64,000 nt of DNA from Pseudooceanicola onchidii (GTDB lineage Bacteria; Pseudomonadota; Alphaproteobacteria; Rhodobacterales; Rhodobacteraceae): the NCBI RefSeq assembly GCF_004959925.1, contig NZ_SPUW01000002.1, forward strand, positions 1 through 64,000, in the 5' to 3' direction. The notes beneath the pieces were generated by a model. The model was not told where the DNA came from. It searched no databases and saw only the letters and a list, made by a program, of their open reading frames with translations. How positions within the stretch are numbered: position 1 is the first letter of the stretch; the number at the start of each line of letters is the position of its first letter. This document shows, piece by piece, positions 60,594 to 64,000 of the stretch. The translations under genes and the position numbers were made by a program.

Positions 60594-61511
60594 TCAGTTT
60601 CCCTCGCAGATGGATTTGACGGTGGTCTTCAGCGTGCGGATGACCTGTTCCAGCTCGCGCTTTTCTTCCTTGTTCAGACCCTTGAGGGGCGGCCGCATCG
60701 GCCCCGCGTGCAGGCCCGACACCTCGACCCCGTGCTTGATGCACTGGATGAACTTGCCGCCCTGTTCGAGCACCCGCATCAGCGGCAGCATCGCCGACAT
60801 GATCCGGCGGCCCTTGGCAAAATCGCCCTTGATCACGCAGGTCTCGTACAGCGCGATGTGTTCTTCGGGCAGGAAGTTCGACCCGCCGCAGATCCAGCTT
60901 TGCGCACCCCAGGCGAAGAACTCCAGCGCCTGGTCGTCCATGCCACAGGACATCTGGATGTGCGGGTAATCGCGCGCCAGCAGGTGCACCCGGTTGATAT
61001 CGCCGGAACTTTCCTTGATCCCGATGACATTGGCGGACCGGCCCACGCGGTCAAGGAACTCGCGCCCCATCTCGACGCCCATGCGGCCCGGGTAGTTGTA
61101 CAGGATGATCGGCAGCCCGCAGGCCCGGTCGATGGCCAGGGCGTTCAACGCATTCTCCCGCTCGGTCGGGACCGAATAGGGCGGCGTGCCCAGCAGGATG
61201 CCGGTGGCGCCCATGTCCACCGCCCCCTCGGCCAGAGCGATCGAATCCGGCGTGCGCAGCGCCCCGGTCCCGACGAAAACCGGGATGCGTCCCTTGACGC
61301 GATCGGTGATGAACCGCGCGATCTGCAGCCGTTCCTCGACCGTCTCGGCATAGTTTTCGCCGGTGGAGCCGCCGGAAATCAGCCCATGAACACCGGCTGT
61401 TACAAGACGTTCGACAAGGTCGGCAAGCGACTCAAAGTCGATCTCGCCCGCGTCATCGAAGGGTGTGATGACCGGCGTGTAGATACCTTCCAGCTTGAAG
61501 CGGGCTGTCAT
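60594..61511 (-). CDS. DapA-superfamily lyase/aldolase
   Basis: A 305-aa TIM-barrel enzyme of the dihydrodipicolinate synthase/N-acetylneuraminate lyase family. Conserved are GIYTPVITPFDDAGEID, GGSTGENYAET, the active-site tyrosine in ILYNYPGRMG and the Schiff-base lysine in VIGIKESSGDINR. Because the neighbours are oxidative enzymes, this is a catabolic member rather than lysine biosynthesis. In hydroxyproline pathways a DapA-like deaminase acts next to a semialdehyde dehydrogenase, but the epimerase and transporter of such loci are not seen here. It is the first gene of the operon. Confidence 0.85.
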   Translation of the reverse strand: MTARFKLEGIYTPVITPFDDAGEIDFESLADLVERLVTAGVHGLISGGSTGENYAETVEERLQIARFITDRVKGRIPVFVGTGALRTPDSIALAEGAVDMGATGILLGTPPYSVPTERENALNALAIDRACGLPIILYNYPGRMGVEMGREFLDRVGRSANVIGIKESSGDINRVHLLARDYPHIQMSCGMDDQALEFFAWGAQSWICGGSNFLPEEHIALYETCVIKGDFAKGRRIMSAMLPLMRVLEQGGKFIQCIKHGVEVSGLHAGPMRPPLKGLNKEEKRELEQVIRTLKTTVKSICEGN

Positions 61512-61628: not shown

Positions 61629-61667
61629 GGTTGCCGCGCGGCCGGGTTTTCTGCCCCTCCAGACGTG

Positions 61668-61706
61668 AAAACCCCGGCGTCGAGACCAAACACGCGCCGG
61701 GGTTTT
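61668..61706. terminator. Hairpin with A/T ends, possible bidirectional terminator
   Basis: A perfect 12-bp inverted repeat (61668-61679 with 61695-61706), starting AAAA and ending TTTT, with a 15-base loop. It may end a transcript that once ran leftward into the catabolic operon, or one running rightward. Confidence 0.4.
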
Positions 61707-61741
61707 CGGGGTTTCAGAAGGCTGGTGAGGCCTGTAGGACT

Positions 61742-61858
61742 GCGCATAACCGTGCGCGTCCCTCACTGATCGCAAACAAGAAAATCGACACTATTCGCTC
61801 ACAGGTTTGTGCGGCGTTCGCGCATAGTCTTGCGCGTTTCGCTCATAACCTTGCGTGG
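61742..61858. repeat. Four TnsB/TniA-binding-site-like repeats at the transposon end
   Basis: GCGCATAACCGTGCGCGT (61742-61759), GCTCACAGGTTTGTGCGG (61797-61814), GCGCATAGTCTTGCGCGT (61820-61837) and GCTCATAACCTTGCGTGG (61841-61858) share the form GCxCAxAxxxTTGxGxGx; the second copy is the least similar. The spacing (55, 23 and 21 bp) mixes isolated and adjacent sites, as in Tn7-like ends. Confidence 0.65.
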
Positions 61859-62098: not shown

Positions 62099-62518
62099 CT
62101 AATCGCTGCCTGGGGATCGCTCGAGGCCGCTCGCAGTCAGAGCCTTCCGGACACGCCGAGCCTCCGACAGCCGTTTATGCGCAGAAATGGAATCCAGAGA
62201 AGCGAAGAAGCCGTGAACATGTTTCCCTTCCGGAAGGATGCGCCACCCCAAGGCCTCCAGCGCCTTCTCAAGGTCATGGCGAGCCTCTCTCCGGACTTCT
62301 CGGGCTTCGCAGGAGGGCTCCACATGTGCGATGTCGAAGTCCTCGCACGAATAGTGCCGCTGGATCTCTACCCACCGCACTCTGCCGGGGCGCTCGACAT
62401 CATACCAGCTGAGCACAGCGACGACATCCACCCGAAGCTGGGCGGCCGCCTTTGTCGTCCGCGCCATTTGCTCTTCCATCGACAGTTCGGGGCCCGAGTG
62501 ATCTTTATCTTGCGGCAT
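62099..62518 (-). CDS. Small unknown protein downstream of tniQ
   Basis: I do not recognise this 139-aa protein. It is charged, with a predicted helical middle (EAREVRREARHDLEKALEALGW) and the aromatic segment WVEIQRHYSCEDFDIAHVEP, and has no signal or membrane helix. Its start lies 14 bp inside the tniQ-like gene, so it is coupled to it. Two cysteines are present. It may be a co-factor of transposition or cargo; its location between TniQ and the element end is the only evidence. Confidence 0.55.
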   Translation of the reverse strand: MPQDKDHSGPELSMEEQMARTTKAAAQLRVDVVAVLSWYDVERPGRVRWVEIQRHYSCEDFDIAHVEPSCEAREVRREARHDLEKALEALGWRILPEGKHVHGFFASLDSISAHKRLSEARRVRKALTASGLERSPGSD

Positions 62519-64000
62519 GTTCCAGCCTTTCGCCTACGTGCATGAGACGCGCGAAATGGGCGACGGAGAGCAGATGACCTCTCGCCGTTTTTCCGACGGT
62601 TTTCGCACCAACCGGTGAAATGCCCCGTCCGGCGAGGCGCGAGATGAGAGCCCGGGATGTCGTTTGGCACTGTTCAGCAACATCCGCGAGCACGAGGTAT
62701 TTCTGCTGGAACTGCGCGAGATCCTCTGGGGCGATCAGCCACGCATCAGCGCCGCCTACGCGACCTTGAGTAGACGGAAGTAGTCCCGCCGCGCACCAAT
62801 GCGTAACACATTCCGGCCTCCAGCCTGTTATCTTCGCGACTTCTCCCGCAGTCATTGCGCTCGGTGCGCCTTGTGCAGCCAGCAGGTCCGAGATCTCCTT
62901 TTCGGAGAACAGCGCATCGCCAAGACGCTGTCCGCTGTCGAAGTGGCGCGCATGGATAGTCCCTGATTTGATCGCCCGGAACACCGCCAGAAGTGCCTTT
63001 TTGTCAGTGGTCCTTCGTAGAGTCAGGTCGCGAAAGGCAATCGTCGGTTCTTCGATGTCCCAGGTCGGAGCCAGATTCTTTCGGATCACGAAAACCCTCC
63101 GGGTCAGGTCGTCCCGATCGAAGCCCCCCGCGACGCATGGATGACGAACATTGACATCGACCGCTGCCACGACATGCGCCTCGAGAAGCAGTTCGAACTG
63201 CTTTCGACCTACCCCCAGAAACTCGCGAGCCCGCGTCTTGTCGAGCATTTGCGACCGCAAGATGCGAGTGGCCTCGATATCCGAGCGCGCGACTATCGTG
63301 TGGACATGCCCAGTGCCGGATCGCGCCAACCGCCCGTTCATCTTGCCGGTCCTGACGGCATCGACAATCCGTTCCGCCCGGATACCCAACTTTTTTGCTC
63401 CTTCGGCTGCGCTCACCCATGCGCCTTCTCCGGAAGCGCCCGCCAACCGATACGCGTCCCCGCAGATAGCCCCAGCCATATGGAGGCAACGCTCTTGGAG
63501 AGCATCCGCGACGGATCCGGTCTGTTTCATCAGTCCTTGATACCAGGACCCCAGACGCGCCGCCGCCGTTTGCCCGTCCGCTTCCGGGGCATCCCAGAGG
63601 TCCTGCACATGACCATCGAATGCCGTCGGCCAGTCGAACAGCAGCGGTTCGACCGTGCCGATCATCTCGCGGGCTTCCGCTAAGGTTTTTGGAATACCGT
63701 CTTTTCCCGGCTTCCCGGTTCGCGTGGACCGCATCGCCGAAGCCAGGAACCACACCGTCCGTGCTACAGATCGGTCAGAGCCGCCCTCCAGGTCGAAACC
63801 GACGATATTTGCGGGGAGTCCCGCGATAGCACGAGAAATCTGGACTGCGCCGTCAGTCGCGAGGATCTGTGGAGCGTCAGCGTAGTGCGCTCCGCAAATG
63901 CAGCTCGCATGTCCGTCGTCCGTCACCCTCAGCGGGGACTCGCAGCCGGGGCAGGTCTCGAGCAGTTCTGTGCCGTGCACAGCGCATGCGGAAACAAGCG
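62505..64000 (-). CDS. tniQ: TniQ/TnsD-family transposon targeting protein, N-terminus outside the window
   Basis: An open frame runs off the right edge without a start; at least 498 codons are visible. Just inside the edge the reading is SACAVHGTELLETCPGCE, which matches the TniQ zinc motif (CxxH followed by CPxC), with a further CIC pair 14 residues on. The rest contains four segments that look like helix-turn-helix units (about residues 190, 250, 377 and 430 counted from the valine codon at 63980), for example MTAGEVAKITGWRPECV. In Tn7-like elements such proteins choose the target site. The GTG at 63980 could be taken as a start but would cut the zinc motif. Confidence 0.75.
   Translation of the reverse strand, partial: LVSACAVHGTELLETCPGCESPLRVTDDGHASCICGAHYADAPQILATDGAVQISRAIAGLPANIVGFDLEGGSDRSVARTVWFLASAMRSTRTGKPGKDGIPKTLAEAREMIGTVEPLLFDWPTAFDGHVQDLWDAPEADGQTAAARLGSWYQGLMKQTGSVADALQERCLHMAGAICGDAYRLAGASGEGAWVSAAEGAKKLGIRAERIVDAVRTGKMNGRLARSGTGHVHTIVARSDIEATRILRSQMLDKTRAREFLGVGRKQFELLLEAHVVAAVDVNVRHPCVAGGFDRDDLTRRVFVIRKNLAPTWDIEEPTIAFRDLTLRRTTDKKALLAVFRAIKSGTIHARHFDSGQRLGDALFSEKEISDLLAAQGAPSAMTAGEVAKITGWRPECVTHWCAAGLLPSTQGRVGGADAWLIAPEDLAQFQQKYLVLADVAEQCQTTSRALISRLAGRGISPVGAKTVGKTARGHLLSVAHFARLMHVGERLEHAAR

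Follow-up and report, generated by a model that had tools for sequence, protein, structure and literature searches.

The window, which means the whole stretch of 64,000 nucleotides that was analysed, corresponds to positions 1-64000 of a contig (C2) of 1,027,058 bases, in an assembly of 3,671,680 bases and 8 contigs. Close to its right edge, the left end of a putative Tn7-like transposon follows a chromosomal gene, and a tniQ gene reads toward this end. The corresponding features are listed below, with prefix C2 where they extend beyond the window.

60594..61511, minus strand: flanking chromosomal gene of the dihydrodipicolinate-synthase family, outside the element
61667..61707, minus strand: hairpin with perfect 13-bp arms and four T at its end on the gyrB strand, candidate gyrB terminator
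61728..61732, no strand: target-site duplication AGGCC, left copy (right copy at C2:89443-89447, beyond the window)
61733..61740, plus strand: left terminus of the transposon, TGTAGGAC (the inverted right terminus ends TCCTACA at C2:89442)
61742..61758, plus strand: putative TnsB-binding site L1 (terminal), matching the repeat pattern with one mismatch, GTG for TTG
61797..61813, plus strand: putative TnsB-binding site L2, no mismatch
61820..61836, plus strand: putative TnsB-binding site L3, no mismatch
61841..61857, plus strand: putative TnsB-binding site L4, no mismatch
62099..62518, minus strand: ORF of 139 aa after tniQ, overlapping the tniQ end, with sub-threshold Pfam matches only
C2:62505-64304 (window part 62505..64000), minus strand: tniQ, 599 aa, predicted TnsD-type target selector (PF06527, E 5.6e-9), crossing the window edge

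The initial annotation had read a TGT terminus at 61733, followed after 6 bases by the first of four 18-bp repeats extending to 61858, as the left boundary of a Tn7-like element with AGGCC as target duplication and a tniQ-type gene facing the repeats. All of this was borne out: TGT occupies 61733-61735, the first repeat begins at 61742, the four repeats match on the plus strand, the facing gene carries the TniQ domain, and AGGCC recurs beyond the window. In the window as a whole the repeat pattern is not in excess (7 found versus 5.3 expected, with one mismatch allowed). What stands out is the clustering: 120 bp of one strand hold four copies, whereas none of 200 dinucleotide-shuffled versions of the window had more than two so close together.

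To the right, the initial annotation had expected tnsA/tniA and tniB/tnsC genes as well as an ACA end carrying the repeat in inverted orientation. Both lie beyond the window edge. The complete element spans C2:61733-89442 (27,710 bp), has the termini TGTAGGA...TCCTACA and is flanked by AGGCC on both sides. The remaining transposition genes and the right end are as follows.

C2:64301-65290, minus strand: tnsC, 329 aa (TniB PF05621, 3e-15; VchTnsC in PDB, 8.4e-13)
C2:65296-67227, minus strand: tnsB, 643 aa (Tn6677 TnsB in PDB, 1.6e-22)
C2:67224-67931, minus strand: tnsA, 235 aa (NF033179, 6.9e-10, and PF08722, 8.3e-4, both under the curated cut-off)
C2:89377-89393, 89398-89414 and 89417-89433, inverted: three site copies of the right end, one mismatch each

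The right-end copies adjoin the junction of TCCTACA with AGGCC, so that four putative sites at the left end stand against three at the right, a layout of several unequally spaced TnsB-type sites with TGT/ACA ends. Taking 61733 as the left end fits the usual convention, in which the left end has the spaced sites and lies far from the attachment gene.

On the minus strand, the order toward the left end is tnsA, tnsB, tnsC, tniQ and the 139-aa ORF. In Pfam, TnsB gave a weak match to the Mu C-terminal domain only, and the rve model did not detect it; its residues D257, D339 and E375 are invariant in 10 of 10 aligned relatives and are read as the likely catalytic DDE triad. In TnsA, all 11 aligned proteins keep E43 and D97, and the later ExK is not invariant. 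The closest solved structures of both TnsB and TnsC belong to Tn6677, the top PADLOC model for TniQ is of type I-F, and the sole PADLOC match of TnsB is a V-K model. A helix-turn-helix match (PF12728) was found at the C-terminus of TniQ, and conservation among nine aligned TniQ proteins spans the whole length. Structure prediction for TniQ from two sequences reached a mean pLDDT of 37, too poor for use. The 139-aa ORF, which has no match in PADLOC, PHROG or NCBIfam, has a counterpart (83% identical) solely in the G008 element among the 12 loci compared (G008, same genus; G000, the own genome).

The bulk of the cargo, mostly of metabolic type, lies between tnsA and the right end. It encodes an IclR regulator, a zinc alcohol dehydrogenase, a fumarase/aspartase-family lyase, an ABC transporter with a family-3 binding protein, a class-V aminotransferase, a beta-lactamase-fold hydrolase, a second ABC transporter, a GntR regulator, an AtuA-family protein and an alpha/beta hydrolase. 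Two further genes were located at its margins.

L002:8355-8663: integrase-core transposase remnant (rve_3), between tnsA and the first cargo gene
C2:87390-89216 (L003:7390-9216): AAA ATPase, 608 aa, directly inside the right end

The 608-aa protein matches 171 PADLOC ATPase families, the best being AriA (7.1e-33), and thus resembles many defence ATPases too broadly to name one system. Identity as a CRISPR-associated transposon (CAST) was considered and is not supported: no direct repeats of at least 22 bp within 150 bp of each other occur in the element, and no Cas protein was found in Pfam among the 22 larger ORF products scanned.

The initial annotation missed the gene at the right end because it lies outside the window.

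C2:89448-91865: gyrB (equivalog TIGR01059), with recF and dnaN beyond

The right end of the element begins exactly 5 bp past the gyrB stop codon; the right AGGCC (GGCCT on the gyrB strand) directly abuts the stop codon, and gyrB is left whole by the insertion. The element now separates gyrB from the hairpin at 61667..61707, which would come after gyrB if the element were absent and is a candidate for its terminator. The hairpin region folds with -39.6 kcal/mol for 83 bases (z -3.1), and the terminator pattern scan does not list it. An insertion-free strain with the same left flank was not found, because the sequence after gyrB varies among the genomes compared: none of 30 gyrB loci showed an empty collinear site by the left-flank genes (dapA-like, aldehyde dehydrogenase), and ORFs after gyrB from 18 genomes, compared with the window and L003-L005, matched only places read as ABC-transporter genes.

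Relatives were searched with TniQ in 390 genomes of the order. Matches were obtained in 17, of which 10 were strong (E below 1e-18), namely those in the own genome, G147, G287, G422, G300, G370, G401, G233, and partial ones in G184 and G111. In each of these 10, tniQ and gyrB share a strand, with tniQ 1-26 kb beyond gyrB. The other seven were weak (E above 1e-6) and lie on contigs other than that of gyrB, and since these are draft genomes nearness is possible. A further carrier, G002, was detected through TnsB, and a scan of genome contigs with TniQ gave one locus, in Primorskyibacter flagellatus (Rhodobacterales in NCBI). When 385 genomes from across the class were searched with the TniQ alignment, seven had a match, full-length in the own genome only, the other six covering N-terminal or zinc-finger columns; among 72,556 plasmid records, 3 matched, at 23-26% identity.

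Altogether, tnsA-B-C-tniQ elements occur at gyrB in nine further genomes, of which two belong to the same genus and seven to four other genera; two more genera have remnants there. Across 12 loci, the TGTAGG start follows the gyrB stop codon after 5 bp in 11 and after 6 bp in one (G184). Matches to tnsA, tnsB, tnsC and tniQ occur in that order in 10 of the 12, tnsA being split in G002 and tniQ having an in-frame stop in G422. A left end with a matching duplication was recognised in 8 of 10 elements, and the duplication is exact in seven.

G000: 27,710 bp, duplication exact
G008: 21,788 bp, duplication with one mismatch
G147: 21,801 bp, duplication exact
G233: 34,867 bp, duplication exact
G002: 28,620 bp, duplication exact
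G287: 46,386 bp, duplication exact
G422: 25,455 bp, duplication exact
G300: 35,457 bp, duplication exact

The left ends of G287, G422 and G300 were found only after the scanned sequence had been extended, and the length for G287 is the longer of two, a second left-end candidate at 8,280 bp having also fitted; the longer was chosen for its site cluster. In G002 and G422 the site scan detected no cluster at the left end. For G370, where the contig ends, and for G401, only looser candidates came up, and these were discarded.

The frequency of such ends was assessed in the same 390 genomes with a pattern of gyrB C-terminal codons, the stop codon, 4-7 bases and TGTAGG. Hits were found in 63 genomes, all at gyrB except that of G427, and the reversed-pattern control, as we read its table, hit 10. 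The spacing among the 62 gyrB hits is 5 bp in 50, 6 in 10, 4 in one and 7 in one. Half of the 30 gyrB loci inspected have a TGTAGG end and half do not, the 15 occupied ones including nine genomes chosen for tniQ and the known carriers G000, G008 and G002. In G004 (L048) and G006 (L049), which were counted as unoccupied, there may be decayed transposon ends just after gyrB, as judged by eye.

For 54 of the 62 genomes, the 60 kb beyond gyrB on its contig contain no PF06527 place (contig ends unchecked). A set of 68 chosen genomes has 70 PF06527 places: 10 are at most 60 kb past gyrB, 14 share its contig at a distance of at least 226 kb, and 46 are on other contigs. When 18 further right ends (16 of the 62, plus G010 and G018) were read over 7-40 kb past gyrB, tnsB had no match in 17 and a fragment in G160, and no exact left end with duplication was present in any. 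Given this scarcity of tnsB, TniQ and left ends, many occupants of the gyrB site are remnants or dependent elements without their own transposase.

About 8.5 kb past gyrB in G409 (first 8.7 kb of L205, C1:793601-813600), a left-type cluster is accompanied by CCTACA and by GTTCG versus GGTCG. This unit of about 8.5 kb has right- and left-type ends and no tnsB match, and is perhaps an element without its own transposase.

In G002 (L025-L027), G300 (L126) and G422 (L124), a left end is followed by another TGTAGG end within 4-6 bases, and in G010 (L195) an abutting-end junction lies about 14.4 kb past gyrB, without an exact duplication. We read these abutting ends as newer elements that entered between gyrB and older ones, giving tandem stacking.

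The boundaries, the duplication and the gene set with its likely catalytic residues can all be read from the DNA itself, and so can the constant position and orientation beside gyrB that many genomes share. TnsA, TnsB, TnsC and TniQ, ends with putative binding sites, a 5-bp duplication and a fixed orientation together make the Tn7-like assignment of the initial annotation well supported at the level of sequence. Very probably, the element is a complete cut-and-paste transposon of the Tn7-like kind, with a TniQ of TnsD type that recognises gyrB by its 3' coding end. By the roles known for their families, TnsB would bind the sites at both ends and cut those ends together with TnsA, and TnsC would connect the ends to the target. 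The single TniQ would act like TnsD, its C-terminal part of about 300 residues, with the helix-turn-helix, binding gyrB at its conserved 3' coding end and directing insertion to a point five bases beyond the stop, in a single orientation with the right end toward gyrB. Such an element may well have kept its mobility.

Insertions lie at a nearly constant distance from gyrB, whereas the sequence that they enter varies, and the simplest reading is that the gyrB end is recognised by the C-terminal half of TniQ. Among occupied gyrB ends (38 distinct), most differences fall at third codon positions, and the same holds for unoccupied ones (15 distinct); this variation, alike in both groups, therefore indicates an available conserved site and not binding by itself.

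Two other explanations of the gyrB position were weighed, each of which we consider very improbable. One holds that the position was inherited from a single old Tn7-like insertion, with no active targeting. The carriers were all found in one order and the cores of G000 and G008 are 89% identical, as common descent would have it. Yet the cargo of these two elements differs, only a 242-bp (73%) and a 30-bp match remaining between the core and gyrB. Moreover, the 5-mer adjoining the end differs in 12 of 12 loci, 59 distinct 5-mers are present among the 62 pattern hits at gyrB, TniQ identities to the first aligned protein drop as low as 35%, and adjoining ends, read as stacked, are present in G002, G300, G422 and G010. 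The other holds that the insertion recognises the gyrB terminator or local supercoiling instead of coding sequence, and the insertion in G000 does fall between the stop codon and the hairpin. However, the distance from the stop codon is nearly fixed, whereas the sequence after it differs, by eye, among the 15 loci without a TGTAGG end (G004 and G006 among them maybe decayed). That the element is of the Tn5053/Tn402 type (tniABQ) and not a TnsA-bearing Tn7-like one is almost certainly wrong: tnsC matches the Pfam TniB model, and tniA/tniB had been named in the initial annotation, but a TnsA-like gene is matched in 11 of 12 loci (the exception being the remnant G184), E43 and D97 are kept in all 11, and the target is a chromosomal gene end.

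The preferred reading thus remains a transposon directed by its TniQ to the end of gyrB. The attachment sites that we found named in PMC11406308 are glmS, yhiN, comM, parE, tRNA genes, guaC, yciA, ffs and rsmJ, and gyrB is absent from these. By word search, the main text of PMC8649781 does not contain "gyr" and PMC10293859 does not contain "gyrase"; in PMC12452197, gyrB serves for a host tree and host comparison. No report of a gyrB attachment site was recognised in the literature searched, which comprised few subscription papers and no supplementary files. A Tn7-like family with a gyrB attachment site, not found in that literature, appears well supported by these genome comparisons.

The 3' end of gyrB would accordingly be an additional chromosomal attachment site for Tn7-like transposons. 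With such ends in 62 of the 390 genomes sampled from one order, it would also be a major route by which these bacteria acquire genes. The system offers a ready test of target choice by TniQ C-termini, and the site could serve as a safe insertion site for genetic engineering of these bacteria. It is conceivable, though we regard it as rather doubtful, that the TniQ selectors homing to gyrB and to parE form two branches of a single lineage, which initially came to recognise topoisomerase B-subunit genes by their homologous 3' ends. In that case the attachment site could move between paralogues, and gyrB in Rhodobacterales would be a general, repeatedly reused landing site with stacking.

Among known systems, the Tn5053/Tn402 (tni) elements share a TniB-like ATPase, TniQ and a 5-bp duplication with the element described here. 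They are not known to have TnsA, whereas TnsA is present here and the target is the end of a chromosomal gene, gyrB. Their target is plasmid resolution sites (PMC11406308). Closer in its choice of target is the Tn7017-type I-F3 CAST, which has a TniQ-targeted attachment site at parE (PMC11406308). Both involve a TniQ-family protein and an insertion beside a type II topoisomerase B-subunit gene, parE being a paralogue of gyrB, and the Tn6677 structures and the I-F TniQ model that fit our element best point the same way, Tn6677 being an I-F3 CAST. The present element differs in that no CRISPR array was seen, only one tniQ is present, the gene is gyrB, and the only PADLOC match of TnsB is to V-K.

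With Tn7 itself, the element shares tnsA-B-C together with a selector that has the TniQ domain, TGT/ACA ends whose arrays of TnsB-type sites are unequal, a 5-bp duplication, and insertion just past an essential gene with the right end adjoining that gene. In Tn7, tnsA adjoins the right end, whereas here most cargo lies between the right end and tnsA; tnsE is not among the genes recognised here, which were obtained without a dedicated tnsE search. TnsD of Tn7 recognises the final 36 bp of the glmS ORF, and Tn7 inserts about 20 bp past the glmS stop codon independently of the sequence there (PMC2918618). The element described here has gyrB in place of glmS as its target, and its insertion lies 5 bp past the stop codon instead of about 20 bp.
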